Of a DNA stretch of 64,000 bases, positions 6,143 through 40,207 are shown in pieces. This DNA is from Hyphomicrobiales bacterium (GTDB taxonomy: Bacteria > Pseudomonadota > Alphaproteobacteria > Rhizobiales > Rhizobiaceae): the NCBI GenBank assembly GCA_900469965.1, contig UBZP01000022.1:62001-126000 (forward strand), in the 5' to 3' direction. A program made the position numbers and the translations under genes. The stretch's first letter is position 1, and each line of letters starts with the position of its first letter. A model generated the notes under the pieces. That model saw only the letters and a list, made by a program, of their open reading frames with translations, did not search any database and was not told where the DNA came from.

Positions 6143-6162
6143 ACATAAAGATATGTTTATGT
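6143..6162. promoter_or_regulatory. Candidate ArsR-family (SahR-like) operator upstream of metH
   Basis: A 20-base AT-rich palindrome, ACATAAAGATATGTTTATGT, with only two mismatched symmetric positions, in an otherwise GC-rich region. A further half site (CTTTATGT) follows at 6171-6178. ArsR-family SahR regulators are known to control methionine-cycle genes, including metH, through AT-rich palindromes. The match to SahR is inferred from position and shape; no sahR gene is in the window. Confidence 0.45.
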
Positions 6163-6182: not shown

Positions 6183-6398
6183 TCAGTGCGGCCTGCCCGT
6201 TCGCCCCGCCAGCTGTTCGAACAGCCTCCGGAGCCGGACGATGTCCGGATCGCGGTCCTGATAGGGTGCGAGCTTGCTGATTTCCTTTGCAGCCGCCACG
6301 GCGAGATCGGCGCCGCGCGGCTGCCACAGCAGCCAGGAGATGAAGACGGATTCCGGCCTGCCGGAGCCGGAGGGTTCGGAATTGACGATGGCAGACAT
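6183..6398 (-). CDS. Unknown 71-residue protein downstream of a B12 riboswitch
   Basis: I do not recognise this protein. It begins MSAIVNSEPSGSGRPE and contains WLLWQPRGADLAVAAAKEI and a charged helical end (DPDIVRLRRLFEQLAG). It has no obvious membrane segment, signal peptide, metal-ligand cluster or His-rich stretch, so it does not look like the cobalt-transport protein CbtB. The ATG at 6398 is preceded by GGGGA at 6-base spacing; that site is inside a 7-base hairpin (6406-6425). The cobalamin riboswitch at 6513-6705 is on the same strand about 115 bases upstream. metH starts 79 bases downstream but appears to have its own control sequences. Coding status rests on the start signals and riboswitch context, not on homology. 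Confidence 0.6.
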   Translation of the reverse strand: MSAIVNSEPSGSGRPESVFISWLLWQPRGADLAVAAAKEISKLAPYQDRDPDIVRLRRLFEQLAGRTGRPH

Positions 6399-6405
6399 TT
6401 GACTT

Positions 6406-6425
6406 CCCCAATCTTGGAATTGGGG
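6406..6425 (-). promoter_or_regulatory. Hairpin masking the start of the 71-residue gene
   Basis: On the minus strand CCCCAAT, a 6-base loop and ATTGGGG form a perfect 7-base stem. The 3' arm carries the GGGGA ribosome-binding site six bases before the ATG at 6398. With a cobalamin riboswitch upstream, this is a natural translational expression platform (inference). There is no T-run, so it is not a transcription terminator. Confidence 0.55.
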
Positions 6426-6512
6426 GATGACCGGACGCACGCAAGCTGGAGTTCCGCTTCGACGCGGAGCAAGCGCACCCGTGGGACACCCCGCCCATGG
6501 ACGTTACGAGTT

Positions 6513-6705
6513 CATCAGGGCAGGTCTCCTGGCTTGCGGGTCGTCGCTTCTGTCCGGCCTTCCCGACACGCATTCGCGCCAGTGGCATGGGGGACAGCGG
6601 CTCGCCGCCTACAGTTGCGGGGGCAGCGCCGGAATGGATGGTTTCCCATCGCACCGGCTTCCCTCTTCGCTTCCTCATCTTCGACGATTCGGAAGAACCC
6701 TGATG
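6513..6705 (-). promoter_or_regulatory. Cobalamin (B12) riboswitch
   Basis: Reading the minus strand, the conserved blocks occur in order: AAGAGGGAAGCCGGTGCGA, GCTGCCCCCGCAACTGTAGG, ATGCCACTGG, GGGAAGGCCGGACAGAAGC and the B12 box GCCAGGAGACCTGCC (6519-6533). The ends pair as a 7-base P1 stem, CATCAGG (6699-6705) with CCTGATG (6513-6519). These are the features of the RF00174 aptamer class, which binds adenosyl- or methylcobalamin and usually switches genes off. The first gene downstream is the 71-residue unknown; metH is second. Confidence 0.95.
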
Positions 6706-7161: not shown

Positions 7162-10100
7162 ATGTCCCTTCACAACCGACCACAGACTTCGTCGCGCGAG
7201 ACGGAATCCAAGCAGATCGACTACAACGACTCGATCCGGGATACCTATTTCACCCTCGAGGAACTGAGCGCCTGCGGTGAGGACCTGGCGAGAAACGGCG
7301 CGCAGACGCTGCCGGGCTTCACGCCGTTCGACTTCCGTGCCCGGCACCGGGAAAACGAGAAGGAGATCTTCCGCGTCTACCAGACGACCGCCCGCGACGT
7401 CGAGGCGGGCATGACGATCACGCCGGCGGCCGAATGGCTGCTCGACAACTACTACGTGGTCGAGGAGGCGATCCAGGAAGTGCGCCGCGACTTCCCGCGC
7501 CGCTTCTATCGTCAGCTGCCGACGATGAAGATCGGCGACGTCGAAATCCCGCGCACGCTGGCGCTCGGCTGGCTCTACGTCGCCCATACCCAGAGCAGCG
7601 TGTCGCGCGAGAGCCTGACGGCGATCGTCGAAGGCTTCCAGAAGGTCGAGGCCTTCAAGATCGGCGAATTGTGGGCGCTGCCGTCGATCGTCCGCTTCAT
7701 CCTGATCGAGAACCTGCGGCGCATTTCCAGCCGCGTCGAGCGCTCACGCGGCATGCGCCGCAAGGCGAACGAGGTGGCCGACGAGCTGATCCGCCAGAAC
7801 GACCCGGAAAAGAGCGTCGTGATCCTGCGCGAGATCGAGCATCTCGTCGCCGACAACACCTTCGTGGCGCAACTGCTCTATCGCCTGCGCGACGGGCTGC
7901 AGGCCTCGGGTGCCGCCATCCAGTGGCTGGAGAAGCAGATCGAGGCGCGCGGCACTGACCTCGAGGAGGTGCTCGTCGCCGAGCAGAACCGGCTGTCGTC
8001 CGGCAATGTCACGATGAGCAACCTCATCAAGGGCCTGCGTTCGATCGACGACACGGAATGGCCCGTCTGGGTGGAGAGCGTCAGCCGCCTCGATGCGGCG
8101 CTGCGCGAGGGCTCCGACTATACCGAGCTCGATTTCGGCTCGCGCAACTCCTATCGCGACACGATCGAGAAGATGGCCCGCCGCTCGGGCAAGACCGAGC
8201 TCGAGGTGACCCAGATCGCGCTGGCGCTGACCGCCGAGGACATGGCGGCCGGCAACGTCGCCGGTGCGCACGAGGCCAATGTCGGCAGCTATCTGGTCGG
8301 CCAGAAGCGCGACATCCTGGAAAAGCGGATCGGCTACCGCCCGTCGATCCTGCAGCGCATCGTCCGTTTCGGCCGGTCGCTCGACTGGTTCGCGATCGCC
8401 GGACCGGTGGTCCTCCTGACGCTTCTGGCCATGGTCGGCGTCTACTACTTCCTCGACCAGATGGACATTCCGGACGGGGCGTGGCTGATCATGCTGATCC
8501 TGTTCGCGGTTCCGGCCTCGGAGGGCGCCGTCGGCCTCTACAACACGCTCGTCACGCTCTGCGTGAAGCCGACCAGGCTGGTGGGCTACGAGCTGCGCGA
8601 GGGCATTCCGGAGGAGGCGCGCACGCTGGTGGCCGTCCCCTGCCTGATCTCCAAGCGCGACCACGTCGACGAACTGGTCCGCAACCTGGAGGTCCACTAC
8701 CTCGCCAATCCGCGCGGCGAGATCTACTTCTCGCTGGTCAGCGACTGGGTCGACAGCACGGTGGAGGAGACGCCGGAGGATCTCGACGTCCTCGAATATG
8801 CCAAGCGCGAGATCGCGCTGCTTTCGGCGCGCTATGCCTATGACGGGCGCACCCGCTTCTACCTGTTGCACCGCCGCCGGCAGTTCAATCCGCAGGAAGG
8901 CGTGTGGATGGGCTGGGAGCGCAAGCGCGGCAAGCTGCACGAGCTGAATCTGCTTTTGCGCGGCGACGGCGACACCAGCTTCCTGCCGGGCGCCAACATC
9001 GTTCCGGAAAACGTCCAGTACGTGCTGACGCTCGATTCCGACACGCGGCTGATGCGCGATGCCGCCACCAATCTCGTCGGCAAGCTGTTCCACCCGATCA
9101 ACCGTCCGCTGATCGACCCGCAGACCCAGCGCGTCGTCGCCGGCTACAGCATCCTGCAGCCGCGCGTCACCCCGTCGCTGACGACCGGCGACGAGGCCTC
9201 GACGTTCCAGCGCATCTTCTCGGCCAACCGCGGCGTCGACCCCTATGTCTTCACCGTCTCGGACGTCTACCAGGACCTCGCCGACGAAGGCACATTCACC
9301 GGCAAGGGGCTCTATCACGTCGACGCCTTCGAGGCGGCGCTGAAGGGGCGCATCGAGGAAAACTCGATCCTGTCGCACGACCTGCTGGAAGGGTCCTATG
9401 CCCGCTGCGCGCTCGTCACCGACGTGGAATTCGTCGAGGACTTCCCGATCCGCTACGAGGTCGAGAACTCGCGCCAGCATCGCTGGGCGCGCGGCGACTG
9501 GCAGCTGCTGCCCTACATCTTCAAGCCGTCCAGCGGCGTTTCCATGCTCGGCCGCTGGAAGATGTACGACAATCTCCGCCGCTGCCTGATCCCGATCTGC
9601 TGGCTCGTCGCCTCGGTCATGGGCTGGTACTACATGGAGCCGCGCCAGGCGCTGATCTGGCAGCTGGTGCTGATCTTCCTCCTGTTCGTCGCGCCCACCC
9701 TGTCGCTCTTCACCGGCGCCGTGCCGCGCCGCAGCGACATCGTCGCCCGCGCCCACCTGCAGACGATCCTGTCCGATATCCGTGCGGCGAACGCGCAGGT
9801 CGCGCTCCGCATCGTCTTCATCGCCCATCAGGCCGCGGTGATGGCGGATGCCACGATCCGCTCGCTCTACCGCATGTTCGTCAGCCGCAAGCACATGCTC
9901 GAATGGCGCACGGCGGCACAGGTGCACAGCTCGTCCGGCGGCGGCATCTGGTCCTACTACGTCGACATGTGGCAGGCGCCGGCGCTGGCCCTGGTCGCGG
10001 TCGGCCTGGCGCTCTTCTCCAAGACGGGCCTTCCCTTCATCGCCATTCCGTTCGCGGCGATCTGGATCCTTTCGCCGGCGATCGCCTGGTACGTCAGCCA

Positions 10101-13100
10101 GTCGGCGGAGACGGAGGACCAGCTGATCGTGCCCGAAGGGGTGGTGACCGAGCTGCGCAAGATCGCACGGCGCACCTGGCGCTATTTCGAGACCTTCGTC
10201 ACCGCCGAGCAGCATTTCCTGCCGCCGGACAATTTCCAGGAGAGGCCGCATCCGGTGCTGGCGGAACGGACCTCGCCGACGAACATCGGCGTCTATCTGC
10301 TGTCGGTCGTCTCGGCGCGCGATTTCGGCTGGATCGGCTTCGAGGAGACGGTGCGGCGGCTCGAGGAGACGGTCTCGACCATCGACAGCATGCCGAAGTT
10401 CCGCGGCCATCTCTACAACTGGTACCGCACGAACACGCTCGAAACGCTCGGCCCGCGCTATGTGTCGGCGGTGGACAGCGGCAACCTTGCGGGCCACCTG
10501 ATCGCCGTCTCGTCGGTCTGCCGCGAATGGGCGGAAGCGCCCTCGGCGCATCTGCACGGCAGCCTCGACGGCATCGGCGACGCGGCCTCGATCCTGTCCG
10601 AAGTGCTGGCGGAACTTCCGGACGACCGCAAGACGGTACGCCCGCTGCGCCGGCTGCTGGAGGAGCGGATCGCCGGCTTCCACAATGCGCTCGCCGCGGT
10701 CAAGCGCGAGCACGAGTTCGCCTCGATCCGCGTCATCAACCTCGGCGTGCTGGCCCGTGACGTCCACAAGCTGATCGCCAACCTCGACCACGAGATCAAG
10801 AGCCCGCAGAGCGCGGAAGTGGTGAAGTGGGCCGATGCGCTGGTCGCCAGCTGCGAAGGGCACATCGCCGACAGCATGTTCGACCTCGGCAGCATCGAGG
10901 CCCTGCGCCAGCGCCTCGTCGTGCTGCGCGACCGCACCCGCGACATCGCGTTCTCGATGGATTTCGGCTTCCTGTTCCGGCCCGAGCGGCGGCTGCTTTC
11001 GATCGGCTACCGCGTCGAGACGAACGAGCTCGACGAGGCCTGCTACGACCTTCTGGCCTCCGAGGCGCGCCTGACCAGCCTGTTTGCGATCGCCAAGGGC
11101 GACCTGCCGACGGAACACTGGCACAAGCTCGGCCGCCCGGTCGTGCCGATCGGTTCGCGCGGCGCGCTCGTCTCCTGGTCCGGCTCGATGTTCGAGTACC
11201 TGATGCCGCCGCTCGTCATGCAGGAGCCGCAGGGCGGCATCCTGAACCAGACGAACAACCTGATCGTCCAGGAGCAGCAGAACCACGGCCGGCGGCTCGG
11301 CACGCCCTGGGGTATCTCGGAAGCGGCGTTCAACGCCCGCGACCACGACATGAACTACCAGTACACCAACTTCGGCGTGCCGACGCTCGGCCTGAAGCGC
11401 GGCCTCGGCCAGAATGCCGTCATCGCGCCCTATGCCTCGCTGCTGGCGACGCAGTATGCGCCGAAGGCGGCACTCGACAACCTCAACGAGCTACGCAAGC
11501 TCGGTGCGCTCGGGATCTACGGCTTCCATGACGCGGTCGACTTCACGCCGACCCGCGTGCCGGAGGGCAAGCGCTGCGCGGTCGTGTACAACTACATGGC
11601 CCACCATCACGGCATGTCGATCGCAGCCGTGGCCAACGTCGCCTTCAACGGGGCGCTGAGGGCACGCTTCCACGCCGATCCGGTGATCGAGGCGGCCGAA
11701 CTCCTGCTGCAGGAGAAGGCGCCGCGCGAGATCCCGATCATTAACACCAAGCGCGAGCCGGAAACGGTCGGCAGCACGCAGGCCGACCTGCTCAGGCCGG
11801 AAGTCCGGGTGATCAAGGATCCGGTGGCGGAGGACCGCGAGGCGGCCTTCTTCTCCAACGGTCACTACTCGGTCATGCTGACCGCGACCGGCTCCGGCTA
11901 CTCGCACTGGAACGGCCAGTCGGTCACCCGCTTCGAGCCCGACCCGGTGGAGGACCGCTGGGGCACCTTCGTCTTCCTGCGCGACACGGCCACCAACGAG
12001 TGGTGGTCGACGACCGTCGAACCCAAGCGCGCCGAGGGCGAGGAGGCAAAGACGCAGTTCAGCGACGACAAGGCGGAGTTCATCAAGACCGTCGGCACGC
12101 TGTCGAGCGAGCTGGAATGCCTGGTCGCCACCGAGCATGACGCGGAGGGCCGGCGCCTGACGCTGCTGAACACCGGCGCCGAGGATCGCTTCATCGAGGT
12201 CACCTCCTACATGGAGCCGGTGGTCACGACCGACGATACCGACAATGCGCACCCGCTGTTCGCGCGCATGTTCCTCAAGACCGAGATCGGCCGGCGCGGC
12301 GACGTCGTGCGCATCCTGCGCAACAAGCGCAGCCCGGGCGATCCGGACATGTGCGTGGCGCACCTGATCGTCGACAATGCCGGCTCGCGCCGGACGGAGG
12401 TGGAGACGGACAGGCGGAACTTCATCGGCCGCGGCCGCAGCCTTGCGACCGCCGCGGCCTTCGAGCCGGGCGCGCAGCTCTCGGGCACCGACGGCTTCAC
12501 GCTCGATCCGATCGTGTCGCTGCGCCGCGTCGTGCGCGTGCCGGCCGGCAAGAAGGTGAAGGTGATCTTCTGGACGATCGCCGCGCCCAACCGTGACGAG
12601 CTGGAACGGGCGATCGATCGCTACCGGCATCCGGAAGCGTTCAACAACGAGCTCATCCATGCCTGGACGCGCTCGCAGGTCCACCTGCGCCACATCGGCG
12701 TCACCTCGCAGGAGGCGGCGAGCTTCCAGGCGCTCGGCCGCTATCTCGTCTATCCCGACATGCACCTGCGCGCCGATGCCGCGACCGTCCAGGCGGGCCT
12801 TGCTTCGCAGTCGGCGCTGTGGCCGCTGGCGATTTCGGGCGACTACCCGATCTATGTCCTTCGCATCAACGACGATGCGGACCTGGAAATCGCCCGCGAG
12901 GCATTGCGGGCCCAGGAGTACCTGCGCCATCGCGGCGTGATGGCCGATCTCGTCATCCTGAACGAGAAGGCCTCGTCCTATGCGCAGGACATGCAGCACA
13001 CGCTCGAGCAGATCTGCGAGAACCTCAGGATGCGCGGCCAGTCGGACGGCATGCGACAGCACATCTTCGCGGTCCGCCGCGACCTGATGGACGTCTCCAC

Positions 13101-15651
13101 CTGGCAGGCGCTGCTGGCGACCGCACGCGCCGTCTTCCACGCGCGCAACGGCACGCTTGCCGACCAGATCGAGCGTGCCATCTCGATCTTCGCCACGCCC
13201 GCCGTCGCCGCCGAGGAAGCGGCACGGCAGTCCGCGCCGGCGCCGGCTTCCGATCGCAAGGGGCAGCCCGTGGCGATCGACGGCGGCGATCTCGCCTTCT
13301 GGAACGGCTATGGCGGCTTCGACGCGGCACGGCGCGAATATGTCATCAAGGTCCGCGGCGGCGAGGGCACCCCGCATCCCTGGATCAACGTGATCGCCAA
13401 CGAGCACTTCGGCTTCCACGTCGCCGCCGAAGGCGGCGCTTTCACCTGGAGCCGCAACTCGCGCGACTATCAGCTGACGCAATGGACGAACGATCCGGTC
13501 ATCAACCGGCCGGGCGAGGCCTTCTACGTCAAGGATCGCGACAGCGGGAGCGTGCACGTTCCCTTCGCCGGCCTGTCGCGCGATCCGTCCATCCTCTTCG
13601 AGGCCTGGCACGGGCTCGGCTATTCCGCCTTCCGCAGTTCGTCGGGCGGGCTGGAGCTGGATCTCGTGCAGACGGTCGATGCCGAGCGTCCGGTGAAGTA
13701 TTCGCGCCTGATCGTGCGCAACACCGGCAAGTCGGTGCGCAATCTTTCGGCCTATGGCTATGTCGAATGGGTGCTCGGCAACAACCCGGCCAAGACGGCG
13801 CCGTTCGTCCTTTGCAGCCAGGACGAGGCGAGCGGGGCGATCCTTGCGACCAATCCCTACAGCCTCGACTATTCGGGCCGTGTCGCCTTCTTCGCCACCA
13901 ACGGCAAGCTGGCCGGGGTGACGACGAGCCGGCGCGAGTTCATCGGCCGCCAGGGCGACATCGCCATGCCGGCGGTGCTTGCGACCGGTGCCGGACTGTC
14001 GGGCACGATGGAAAGCAACGGGGCGCCGTGTGCGGCGCTGGTCACCGACTTCAAGCTGCAGCCGGGCGAGGAGAAGGAAATCCTCTTCGTTCTCGGCGAC
14101 TGCGACACGGCGGAGGCGGCGAGCGCGCTCGCGGGCGAGGCGATATCGGTGTCCATCGACGCGGCCCTGAAGAAGATGCGCGACTTCTGGGGCGAGTTCA
14201 CGGGGACGCTGCAGGTCGAGACGCCGGATCCGGCGCTGAACCTGATGGTGAACACCTGGCTGCCCTACCAGAGCCTCGGCTGCCGCGTGCTGGCGCGGGC
14301 CGCCTTCTACCAGGCGAGCGGGGCCTACGGCTTCCGCGACCAGCTGCAGGATACGCTGGCCTTCCTGACGCACCGGCCGGAGCTTGCCAGGAAGCAGATC
14401 CTGAACGCGGCGTCGCGGCAGTTCCCCGAAGGCGACGTGCAGCACTGGTGGCTGCCGGAAACCGGCGCGGGCGTACGCACGATCATTTCGGACGACGTCG
14501 TCTGGCTGGCCTATGCGGTCACCCAGTACTGCCGCTCGACCGGCGATCACGCGATCCTGAGCGAGAAGCTGACCTATATCGAAGGGCCGCCGCTGGCCGA
14601 GGGGCAGCACGATTCGTTCTTCAAGCCCGGGCGCTCGACGGAGCCGGCCGAACTCTACGAGCATTGCGCCCGGGCGCTCGATCTCGCGATCCGCAGGACC
14701 GGCGAGAACGGCCTGCCGCTGATCCTCGGCGGCGACTGGAACGACGGCATGAACCGTGTCGGAGAGGCCGGCAAGGGCACAAGCGTCTGGCTCGGCTGGT
14801 TCCTGGCGGGCACGCTGCGCGCCTTCGCGCCGATCGCGCGCGAACGGGGCGACAACCATCGCTCCCGGGTCTGGCTGGAGCATCTGGAGAAACTCAAGGC
14901 GGCGCTGGAATCGGCCGGCTGGGACGGCGAACACTACCGACGCGGCTATTTCGACGACGGCACCCCGCTCGGCTCGAAGGACAATGCGGAATGCCGCATC
15001 GATTCCATCGCGCAGTCGTGGAGCGTTCTTTCCGGCGAGGGCGACAAGGAGCGGGCGTGGCTGGCCATGGACGCGGTGCTGGCCGAGCTTGCCGACAGCG
15101 AGGCGGGGATCATCAAGCTGTTCACGCCGCCCTTCGCAAAAAGCCAGCAGGATCCCGGCTACATCAAGGCCTATCCGCCGGGCGTGCGCGAGAACGGCGG
15201 CCAGTACACCCATGCCGCGGCATGGGTGGTGATGGCGCTGGCCATGCAGGGCCGGGCGGACGATGCCTGGAACTGCCTGAACATGCTGAACCCGATCAAG
15301 CACGGCCAGACGCCGGAGGCGATCGAGACCTATCGCGTCGAACCCTACGTGGTGGCGGCCGACGTCTACGGCGAAGGCGATCGCAAGGGCAGGGGCGGCT
15401 GGACCTGGTACACAGGCTCGGCCGGCTGGCTCTATCGGGCCGCCGTCGAAGGCTTGCTCGGCATTCGCAAGGAGAACGGCCGTCTGGTGGTCGAACCGGC
15501 GATCCCCTCGCACTGGTCGAACTTCTCCGCCACGGTCACCCTCGACGGCGTGAAGCACGAAATCCGTGCGGAACGCAAAGCCGACGGTAAAATCGACGTG
15601 AAGATTGATGAAACTGTCATAAAGAGCGCTCAAGAAGAGTATTCGCTCTAG
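7162..15651 (+). CDS. ndvB: Cyclic beta-(1,2)-glucan synthase
   Basis: A 2829-residue inner-membrane protein of NdvB/ChvB size. A long N-terminal cytoplasmic part is followed by hydrophobic segments at about 406-433, 440-460, 808-855 and 938-978. The glycosyltransferase lies between them with Asp625-Ser-Asp627 (DSD) and Gln772-His-Arg-Trp775 (QxxRW). A glycoamylase-like region and sugar-binding domains follow, ending in a GH94 phosphorylase domain with GGDWNDGMN (Asp2525, Asp2528). Known family role: polymerises glucose from UDP-glucose on the protein itself, trims length by phosphorolysis through GH94, and cyclises the chain. The glucans serve hypo-osmotic adaptation and host infection. The ribosome-binding site is weak. 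opgC follows and ndvA is nearby. Confidence 0.97.
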   Translation: MSLHNRPQTSSRETESKQIDYNDSIRDTYFTLEELSACGEDLARNGAQTLPGFTPFDFRARHRENEKEIFRVYQTTARDVEAGMTITPAAEWLLDNYYVVEEAIQEVRRDFPRRFYRQLPTMKIGDVEIPRTLALGWLYVAHTQSSVSRESLTAIVEGFQKVEAFKIGELWALPSIVRFILIENLRRISSRVERSRGMRRKANEVADELIRQNDPEKSVVILREIEHLVADNTFVAQLLYRLRDGLQASGAAIQWLEKQIEARGTDLEEVLVAEQNRLSSGNVTMSNLIKGLRSIDDTEWPVWVESVSRLDAALREGSDYTELDFGSRNSYRDTIEKMARRSGKTELEVTQIALALTAEDMAAGNVAGAHEANVGSYLVGQKRDILEKRIGYRPSILQRIVRFGRSLDWFAIAGPVVLLTLLAMVGVYYFLDQMDIPDGAWLIMLILFAVPASEGAVGLYNTLVTLCVKPTRLVGYELREGIPEEARTLVAVPCLISKRDHVDELVRNLEVHYLANPRGEIYFSLVSDWVDSTVEETPEDLDVLEYAKREIALLSARYAYDGRTRFYLLHRRRQFNPQEGVWMGWERKRGKLHELNLLLRGDGDTSFLPGANIVPENVQYVLTLDSDTRLMRDAATNLVGKLFHPINRPLIDPQTQRVVAGYSILQPRVTPSLTTGDEASTFQRIFSANRGVDPYVFTVSDVYQDLADEGTFTGKGLYHVDAFEAALKGRIEENSILSHDLLEGSYARCALVTDVEFVEDFPIRYEVENSRQHRWARGDWQLLPYIFKPSSGVSMLGRWKMYDNLRRCLIPICWLVASVMGWYYMEPRQALIWQLVLIFLLFVAPTLSLFTGAVPRRSDIVARAHLQTILSDIRAANAQVALRIVFIAHQAAVMADATIRSLYRMFVSRKHMLEWRTAAQVHSSSGGGIWSYYVDMWQAPALALVAVGLALFSKTGLPFIAIPFAAIWILSPAIAWYVSQSAETEDQLIVPEGVVTELRKIARRTWRYFETFVTAEQHFLPPDNFQERPHPVLAERTSPTNIGVYLLSVVSARDFGWIGFEETVRRLEETVSTIDSMPKFRGHLYNWYRTNTLETLGPRYVSAVDSGNLAGHLIAVSSVCREWAEAPSAHLHGSLDGIGDAASILSEVLAELPDDRKTVRPLRRLLEERIAGFHNALAAVKREHEFASIRVINLGVLARDVHKLIANLDHEIKSPQSAEVVKWADALVASCEGHIADSMFDLGSIEALRQRLVVLRDRTRDIAFSMDFGFLFRPERRLLSIGYRVETNELDEACYDLLASEARLTSLFAIAKGDLPTEHWHKLGRPVVPIGSRGALVSWSGSMFEYLMPPLVMQEPQGGILNQTNNLIVQEQQNHGRRLGTPWGISEAAFNARDHDMNYQYTNFGVPTLGLKRGLGQNAVIAPYASLLATQYAPKAALDNLNELRKLGALGIYGFHDAVDFTPTRVPEGKRCAVVYNYMAHHHGMSIAAVANVAFNGALRARFHADPVIEAAELLLQEKAPREIPIINTKREPETVGSTQADLLRPEVRVIKDPVAEDREAAFFSNGHYSVMLTATGSGYSHWNGQSVTRFEPDPVEDRWGTFVFLRDTATNEWWSTTVEPKRAEGEEAKTQFSDDKAEFIKTVGTLSSELECLVATEHDAEGRRLTLLNTGAEDRFIEVTSYMEPVVTTDDTDNAHPLFARMFLKTEIGRRGDVVRILRNKRSPGDPDMCVAHLIVDNAGSRRTEVETDRRNFIGRGRSLATAAAFEPGAQLSGTDGFTLDPIVSLRRVVRVPAGKKVKVIFWTIAAPNRDELERAIDRYRHPEAFNNELIHAWTRSQVHLRHIGVTSQEAASFQALGRYLVYPDMHLRADAATVQAGLASQSALWPLAISGDYPIYVLRINDDADLEIAREALRAQEYLRHRGVMADLVILNEKASSYAQDMQHTLEQICENLRMRGQSDGMRQHIFAVRRDLMDVSTWQALLATARAVFHARNGTLADQIERAISIFATPAVAAEEAARQSAPAPASDRKGQPVAIDGGDLAFWNGYGGFDAARREYVIKVRGGEGTPHPWINVIANEHFGFHVAAEGGAFTWSRNSRDYQLTQWTNDPVINRPGEAFYVKDRDSGSVHVPFAGLSRDPSILFEAWHGLGYSAFRSSSGGLELDLVQTVDAERPVKYSRLIVRNTGKSVRNLSAYGYVEWVLGNNPAKTAPFVLCSQDEASGAILATNPYSLDYSGRVAFFATNGKLAGVTTSRREFIGRQGDIAMPAVLATGAGLSGTMESNGAPCAALVTDFKLQPGEEKEILFVLGDCDTAEAASALAGEAISVSIDAALKKMRDFWGEFTGTLQVETPDPALNLMVNTWLPYQSLGCRVLARAAFYQASGAYGFRDQLQDTLAFLTHRPELARKQILNAASRQFPEGDVQHWWLPETGAGVRTIISDDVVWLAYAVTQYCRSTGDHAILSEKLTYIEGPPLAEGQHDSFFKPGRSTEPAELYEHCARALDLAIRRTGENGLPLILGGDWNDGMNRVGEAGKGTSVWLGWFLAGTLRAFAPIARERGDNHRSRVWLEHLEKLKAALESAGWDGEHYRRGYFDDGTPLGSKDNAECRIDSIAQSWSVLSGEGDKERAWLAMDAVLAELADSEAGIIKLFTPPFAKSQQDPGYIKAYPPGVRENGGQYTHAAAWVVMALAMQGRADDAWNCLNMLNPIKHGQTPEAIETYRVEPYVVAADVYGEGDRKGRGGWTWYTGSAGWLYRAAVEGLLGIRKENGRLVVEPAIPSHWSNFSATVTLDGVKHEIRAERKADGKIDVKIDETVIKSAQEEYSL

Positions 15652-39895: not shown

Positions 39896-40207
39896 GCCGA
39901 ACCAATCAATGTTGCTGGACGCATGATCTGGGAGGTCGGCGCGTGCTTTGTAAGGGTTCCGGCCGGCTTTCGCGCATTTTCAGCCGCTATCCTTGACTTT
40001 GGCGCCGCTTTCCTGTTTATCCGCGCCATCTGCGACAAGTTCAGACACTTGAAGCCGCCGACCGGGACCCGAAAAGGTATAAAGAGATCCCGGAGGTCAA
40101 CACCCGACAGCGCGATGCGCCCTCGGGTGGTTTTCGGCTTTGCGTCTTGTTTTCGTCGCAGATAGCACCGACGTTTCCGGGGAGCCGGAAACAAGAAGGA
40201 AGACCCG
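39896..40207. other. Divergent control region between the hydrolase gene and ffh
   Basis: A possible ffh promoter is TTGACT (39993-39998), an 18-base spacer and TTTATC (40017-40022). The ffh leader then contains a strong two-part hairpin (40102-40128). I see no coding gene here. Confidence 0.4.
40102..40128 (+). promoter_or_regulatory. Leader hairpin upstream of ffh
   Basis: ACCCGA (40102-40107) pairs with TCGGGT (40123-40128), and inside it GCGC pairs with GCGC around a GAT loop. GGTTTTC follows, so it resembles an attenuator or weak terminator about 75 bases before the ffh ATG. Seen: the pairing and T-run; a regulatory role is inferred. Confidence 0.45.

Follow-up and report, generated by a model that had tools for sequence, protein, structure and literature searches.

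Cobalamin (B12) riboswitches are reliable pointers to B12 biology, and the L5 and L13 loops of these RNAs have a kissing role. CbtB is a small cobalt-transport protein found under such riboswitches. ArdX and FrdX, whose names reportedly go back to Rodionov 2003, are presumably a B12-regulated Rieske oxygenase and ferredoxin reductase. Here we analyze a recurrent small protein of the Rhizobiaceae that lies outside Pfam and NCBIfam and whose gene follows a cobalamin riboswitch.

The riboswitch, the small gene and metH in the window

The window, the whole 64,000-nucleotide stretch of DNA that was analyzed, is part of contig C30 of a 5.34-Mb genome. Its minus strand carries, in this order, a cobalamin riboswitch, an open reading frame of 71 residues, and metH, an observation that our analysis confirmed. 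The locus contains the following features.

6717-6502, minus strand: cobalamin riboswitch aptamer (RF00174; cmscan 126 bits, E 3e-31, model 1-189)
6523..6533, minus strand: B12 box GCCAGGAGACC, read from the sequence and lying within the RF00174 alignment
6482..6497, minus strand: L13-like regulatory hairpin UGGG-CGGGGUGU-CCCA, present in 17/17 close loci
6405..6429, minus strand: hairpin CAUCCCCCAAU...AUUGGGGA over the Shine-Dalgarno sequence GGGGA of the small gene (17/17 close loci; folding)
6398-6183, minus strand: gene for the 71-residue protein (P0001), assigned to an unnamed B12-riboswitch-associated small-protein family (profiles, alignment, dN/dS)
6144..6161, strand not assigned: putative SahR-like palindrome CATAAAGATATGTTTATG upstream of metH, present in 23/25 metH loci
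6103-2312, minus strand: metH, B12-dependent methionine synthase (PRK09490 2154 bits, TIGR02082 1730 bits)
7162..15651, plus strand: divergent gene of 2829 amino acids, a conserved-synteny marker (ORF; divergent neighbor in 16/16 named relatives)

The aptamer score compares with a gathering score of 31.5, the alignment covers the full model, and the B12 box is present, in agreement with a sequence-only reading that had placed a complete B12 riboswitch before the small gene. The small ORF runs from an ATG to a TGA, and GGGGA ends 6 nt 5' of the ATG. Further mechanically called ORFs overlap the stretch occupied by the riboswitch and the small gene. The divergent 2829-residue gene is one that we take to be NdvB-like. 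Farther along the plus strand of the window, positions 40086-40137 match the Rfam 'ffh sRNA' family (RF01793) with 62.8 bits.

A profile search found a single copy of the small gene in the genome to which the window belongs. The same genome contains a second riboswitch (C22:2294-2490) on another contig, directly 5' of ardX (C22:2591-3832), which is followed by a FrdX-like ORF identified by eye. Another of its riboswitches precedes genes that we take to be CbtA-, CobW- and CobN-like. A fifth, weaker RF00174 match lies at C9:445695-445923 (72.7 bits), with no obvious B12 gene directly after it.

A search for related loci recovered 16, from named genomes of Rhizobium, Mycoplana, and Shinella, with identities of 58-80 %. 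The closest named relatives of the small protein are found in Rhizobium rhizolycopersici, R. subbaraonis, Rhizobium sp. GN54, and Mycoplana azooxidifex, with Shinella species next. All 16 loci keep the frame open, carry RF00174 upstream and metH downstream, and are flanked by the divergent gene. The sequence-only reading had named a lack of homologues or an unconserved frame as grounds for its refutation; neither applies. We compared 16 small-gene sequences (the window and L016-L030; L031, one residue shorter, was excluded) in 120 pairs, which gave a median dN/dS of 0.33 and a maximum of 0.64. Substitutions fell mostly at the third codon position (1906, 1509, and 3358 at positions 1, 2, and 3, respectively). 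In the alignment of 17 proteins, the core LLWQPRGADL does not vary, nor do D, P, I, R, and L residues further on. The frame is under purifying selection, which argues against a non-functional leader ORF or chance ORF that would relay riboswitch control to metH. The shortness of the frame and its position upstream of metH would suit such an element, but family members also sit behind frdX, nrdB, or btuF2 in stretches that contain no metH, and metH has a conserved palindrome of its own. We consider this explanation very improbable.

The family models searched did not place the protein, which the sequence-only reading had likewise been unable to assign to a family. Searches of Pfam, NCBIfam, and PADLOC returned nothing convincing for P0001 or for an alignment of 36 members, none of which had a Pfam or NCBIfam hit at E<=0.01; the Pfam searches included the CbtB model, so that by these models the protein is not CbtB, whose hallmarks the sequence-only reading had found lacking. 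Single weak matches to Mph(F) (E 0.11) and PbeB (1/36 members, E 0.0092) were set aside as chance. A PDB profile search with the small protein gave a best E of 0.24, and fold searches of the PDB gave a best Foldseek E of 2.8 and a best VIA-align Z of 4.8 with no row well above the rest; these sequence and fold searches revealed no clear relative and none that suggests a function. The structure model, built from 17 sequences, has a mean pLDDT of 76 (70-90 in blocks of residues 11-70) and predicts helices at residues 14-24, 32-46, and 51-64 with low-confidence ends. By eye, the 71 residues contain no evident signal peptide or membrane helix. Because no catalytic residue pattern is evident either, we read the small protein as a binding domain; in this reading, its three helices would form a soluble adaptor or binding module and the protein would not be an enzyme. 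Literature searches returned no title or abstract start that describes such a small protein, in keeping with the suggestion that the gene is undescribed, and none for ardX or frdX combined with riboswitch terms.

Leader anatomy and predicted control of translation

In all 17 close loci, loop L5 of the aptamer contains CCCCG, the UGGG-CGGGGUGU-CCCA hairpin presents a complementary loop, and a hairpin of the CAUCCCCCAAU...AUUGGGGA type lies over the ribosome-binding site, which is located 4-6 nt 5' of the start. The loop of this last hairpin varies in length and sequence, and its arms remain complementary. Eleven more distant leaders all contain GGGCGGGG; C-rich and G-rich arms just 5' of the start codon were recognized by eye in 7 of them.

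This anatomy suggests a model in which B12 binding allows aptamer L5 to capture the CGGGGUG loop. Capture of the loop would cause the CAUCCCCC...GGGGA hairpin to close over the ribosome-binding site, turning translation off. When B12 is absent, GGGGUG could pair with CAUCCC, which would free the ribosome site and turn translation on. Folding calculations that leave the aptamer out gave an openness of 0.17 for the Shine-Dalgarno sequence of the window with the L13 loop held unpaired, compared to 0.38 with the alternative pairing forced. Across the 17 loci, openness of the ribosome site was 3-20 % with the L13 loop held, 22-43 % with the GGGGUG:CAUCCC pairing forced, and 4-34 % without constraint. 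The contrast was only 0.05 in L016 and L017. In 7/17 loci, removing the constraint did not open the ribosome site beyond its loop-held value, and in 5/17 the alternative pairing reached the minimum free energy to within 0.1 kcal/mol. The calculated difference has the expected sign, though it is modest. The presence of the leader loop and the ribosome-site hairpin in 17/17 loci predicts that B12 switches translation of the small gene off; because the folding contrast is modest and was calculated without the aptamer, we infer no more firmly than this that the gene is off with B12 and on without it.

Family distribution and association with cobalamin riboswitches

Profiles of the family were built stepwise (A1, A2, and A5) and found distant members in 25/151, 29/151, and 81/394 genomes of the home bacterial family, respectively. 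This widest search covered 109 genera, of which 31 contained matches; the remaining 313 genomes, including one of the same genus (G001), gave none at E<=0.001. A sample of the order contained 10 matching genomes out of 297, some weak and with the window's own among them, and a sample of the phylum contained 5 out of 299, of which two fall in the home family and three are weak. Proteins of the family are about 70-110 residues in length. Some genomes (loci L133, L199, L217; genomes G137, G735, G841) contain two or three matches, some partial, that have different partners and lie in riboswitch-headed stretches. In two Phyllobacterium plasmids, the gene is annotated 'hypothetical protein' in the orders nrdA-nrdB-gene-cobF-metH and nrdA-nrdB-gene-metH. 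Weak matches that stand outside the neighborhood counts below are G816, G735:C9, and G926:C3 from the 394-genome search and G223 and G443, inside long frames, from the order search. Two weak class-level matches, L141 and L142, have no riboswitch and are perhaps unrelated; the B12 box is absent from L141 and L143, and L142 has a one-mismatch box on the opposite strand only. As part of an explanation that we consider, taken as a whole, somewhat probable, these matches would represent a conserved, unnamed small-protein family in Rhizobiaceae and a few neighboring families.

Gene neighborhoods were compared for 94 copies from 85 genomes that were picked by protein profile only (95 rows minus L256, which is the same gene as L063; L141-L143 were excluded). 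In 93 of these, a cobalamin-riboswitch motif on the same strand precedes the small gene. The motif is within 400 bp of the small gene in 40 copies and 441 bp away with no recognized gene between in one. In the other 52, recognized genes intervene: genes of the ardX-frdX type in 39 (one also with fdhA, one with frdX alone recognized), nrdA-nrdB in 10, and btu genes in 3. These labels derive from blastp against an in-house reference set and cover recognized genes only; no recognized gene on the opposite strand separates the motif from the small gene. Several stretches contain two riboswitches, one 5' of nrdAB and another 5' of ardX. Eleven copies have a riboswitch upstream and no recognized adjacent gene (L077, L109, L110, L140, L226, L227, L242, L243, L245, L248, L249). 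As a genomic association, the upstream motif, together with the many copies found beside genes for B12-independent backup enzymes or other B12 genes, supports the earlier expectation that the small protein has a B12-related job.

The first riboswitch motif used for this count recovers 21/23 Rfam-confirmed cases and gave 6 matches in 3.86 Mb of reversed-sequence control. A second motif, made after a divergent B12 box was found in ardX-type riboswitches, gave one control match in 3.79 Mb. A looser motif matched 16/18 Rfam-confirmed cases, yet produced 1116 control matches and was dropped. Rfam confirmed RF00174 5' of ardX at 8/8 loci tested and 5' of the small gene in 7/8 loci without a match to the first motif; the exception, L247, is the sole copy of the 94 without a riboswitch. 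Two 3-kb stretches (L013, L014) contain no RF00174 match; in longer stretches from these genomes (L073, L058), a match precedes ardX.

The divergent B12 box (GAGCCCGGAAACCAGCC type) was observed upstream of ardX in L058, L064, L070, L073, L207, L216, and L219, and upstream of the small gene in L068, L072, L205, and L232. Riboswitches with this box still score 86-117 bits with RF00174 and possibly constitute a ligand-selectivity subtype.

Variable gene partners and a possible role in B12 starvation

No single partner gene is universal across copies of the small gene. Among the 94 copies, the nearest recognized gene upstream is frdX in 38, nrdB in 9 (10 with L133, whose cobF ORF call overlaps), metH in 3, btuF2 in 2, and fdhA in 1; downstream, it is metH in 22, cobF in 7, and btuB in 1. 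In NCBIfam, the ArdX and FrdX tested resemble the glycine-betaine monooxygenase GbcA/GbcB at scores below the cut-offs (538.8 vs 670 and 368.8 vs 500, respectively), NrdA and NrdB correspond to PRK07207 and PRK07209, and CobF corresponds to TIGR02434. Long open frames that hinted at a fusion of the small protein with FrdX or NrdB showed no similarity to either in blastp and read as another frame of the upstream gene; fusion was rejected. Same-frame exceptions among these long frames are a 36-residue BtuF2-like piece in L135 and a 17-residue ArdX-like piece in L201.

The frequent position behind frdX raises the question of whether the small protein is a third component (a small subunit or an assembly or coupling factor) of ArdX/FrdX, which would then act as a GbcAB-like N-demethylase induced at low B12. 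In 13/47 cases, the stop of the frdX or nrdB gene upstream coincides with the motif ATGA, a possible stop-start overlap. Co-occurrence was evaluated in 151 genomes, using 26 of the 29 matching genomes as carriers (G071, G073, and G153, with E 0.006-0.01, were left out). ArdX of at least 500 bits was found in 19/26 carriers compared to 36/125 non-carriers (p 3.6e-5, indicative only, as the genomes are related and not phylogenetically independent), and the genome of the window has ardX-frdX under its own riboswitch. However, 7/26 carriers (G019, G031, G070, G080, G114, G145, G164) have no ArdX at this threshold and 36 non-carriers have one, ardX lies on another contig in the window's genome, no fusion with FrdX was seen, and the small gene also occurs behind nrdB or alone behind a riboswitch. 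A dedicated ArdX/FrdX component is, in our judgment, an unlikely explanation, though one that deserves some weight.

Three genes near ardX (L136:8475-9737 (-), L133:19516-19899 (+), and one in L232) are presumably glutathione-independent formaldehyde dehydrogenase-like, which would fit ArdX as a formaldehyde-releasing N-demethylase. One idea is that ArdX might carry out oxidative demethylation of methyl-folate while MetH is idle. In L108:12252-14356 (-) and in L235, genes with a riboswitch upstream lie beside the ardX-frdX-small operon. We take them to be MesD/MesX-like (core MetE plus DUF1852-like), and they possibly encode a B12-independent methionine synthase.

The sequence-only reading had also pointed to the adjacency of the small gene and metH. 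This adjacency recurs: metH is the next recognized gene downstream (<0.7 kb) in 22/94 copies and lies in the same stretch in 38/94, in the orders riboswitch-small-metH, nrdB-small-metH, nrdB-small-cobF-metH, and metH-small, some of them in the named Phyllobacterium records. Such recurrence would suit an accessory, protector, or inhibitor of B12-starved (apo) methionine synthase. However, 11 of the 22 share a single syntenic arrangement, that of Mycoplana, Shinella, R. alarense, and their relatives, and the search for MetH covered 30 chosen genomes, 25 of which have it. In one group of genera, the riboswitch and small gene lie between the divergent 2829-residue gene and metH. A palindrome like CATAAAGATATCTTTATG precedes metH in 23 of these 25 loci, 4 with the small gene there and 19 without it. 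It contains 0-1 mismatches in 21 loci and 2 and 3 in the remaining two; it lies about 50-80 bp before the matched metH start in 21 and about 150 bp before it in two. In the two loci that lack the palindrome (L157 and L158, from G020 and G146), the small gene sits elsewhere, behind frdX. Since metH keeps a conserved palindrome of its own whether or not the small gene precedes it, separate regulation of metH and the small gene is probable; riboswitch control of metH was judged unlikely, and the adjacency has to be read with care. A MetH-specific factor seems to us unlikely, to much the same degree as an ArdX/FrdX component. According to two reports (PMC4239095, PMC8877191), the SahR motif is a palindrome of 20 bp, and metH of rhizobia has SahR sites in its upstream region.

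Copies behind nrdB suggest an aid to ribonucleotide reduction when NrdJ fails without B12, through maintenance of the NrdB cofactor or action on NrdJ itself. NrdB of this type occurs in 8/26 carriers and 10/125 other genomes (p 0.004, indicative only, as the genomes are related), and NrdJ is present in 26/26 carriers. Yet NrdJ is near-universal (140/151 genomes) and its presence says little, and NrdB of the PRK07209 type was not found in the genome of the window at E<=1e-80. We regard this role as improbable. A role in B12 or cobalt uptake or in B12 synthesis appears a shade less probable still: btuF2 lies directly upstream of two copies, btuB directly downstream of one, and cobF directly downstream of seven, but such neighbors are a minority, and the protein has neither a signal peptide or membrane helix evident by eye nor a Pfam match.

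The partners of the small gene vary and its riboswitch control does not, an argument more for a role during B12 starvation than for membership of a single fixed complex. We favor, as somewhat more probable than its denial, a family of small helical proteins made under B12 shortage that would serve as soluble adaptors aiding the cell through B12 starvation. The small protein would do so through an effect on one protein of the starved cell, for which the Rieske oxygenase-reductase pair ArdX/FrdX, MetH, and a ribonucleotide reductase are candidates. Action in trans is conceivable, given that in the genome of the window the gene is not next to ardX-frdX and ardX-frdX has its own riboswitch. It is tempting to speculate further that the adaptor is made only at low B12 and binds MetH, NrdJ, or a B12-independent backup enzyme; we hold this more specific version tentatively, as doubtful. 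If true, it would add a protein layer to the riboswitch-controlled change between B12-dependent and B12-independent metabolism. That the protein is conserved and retains its riboswitch as its gene partners change hints at a function bound up with B12 starvation itself. The small protein may offer a direct means of testing how B12-dependent enzymes are operated, protected, or replaced in bacteria, and what purpose the co-regulated Rieske oxygenase pair serves.

Among known systems, the likeness to metH regulated by SahR, an ArsR-type repressor, concerns the metH palindrome and not the small gene; the palindrome is a putative SahR site. Like CbtB, the small protein is encoded under a B12 riboswitch, but it differs from CbtB in having a Pfam match in 0/36 members and no evident membrane helix. 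The small gene often shares one operon and its riboswitch control with ardX-frdX, whereas its product has no evident resemblance to ArdX or FrdX. The leader resembles the cobalamin riboswitch RF00174 itself, with which the locus shares a full aptamer, the B12 box, L5, a matching downstream loop, and a position directly 5' of a gene. The usual targets of RF00174 are genes for B12 uptake, B12 synthesis, or isozymes; the gene controlled here encodes an unnamed small protein.
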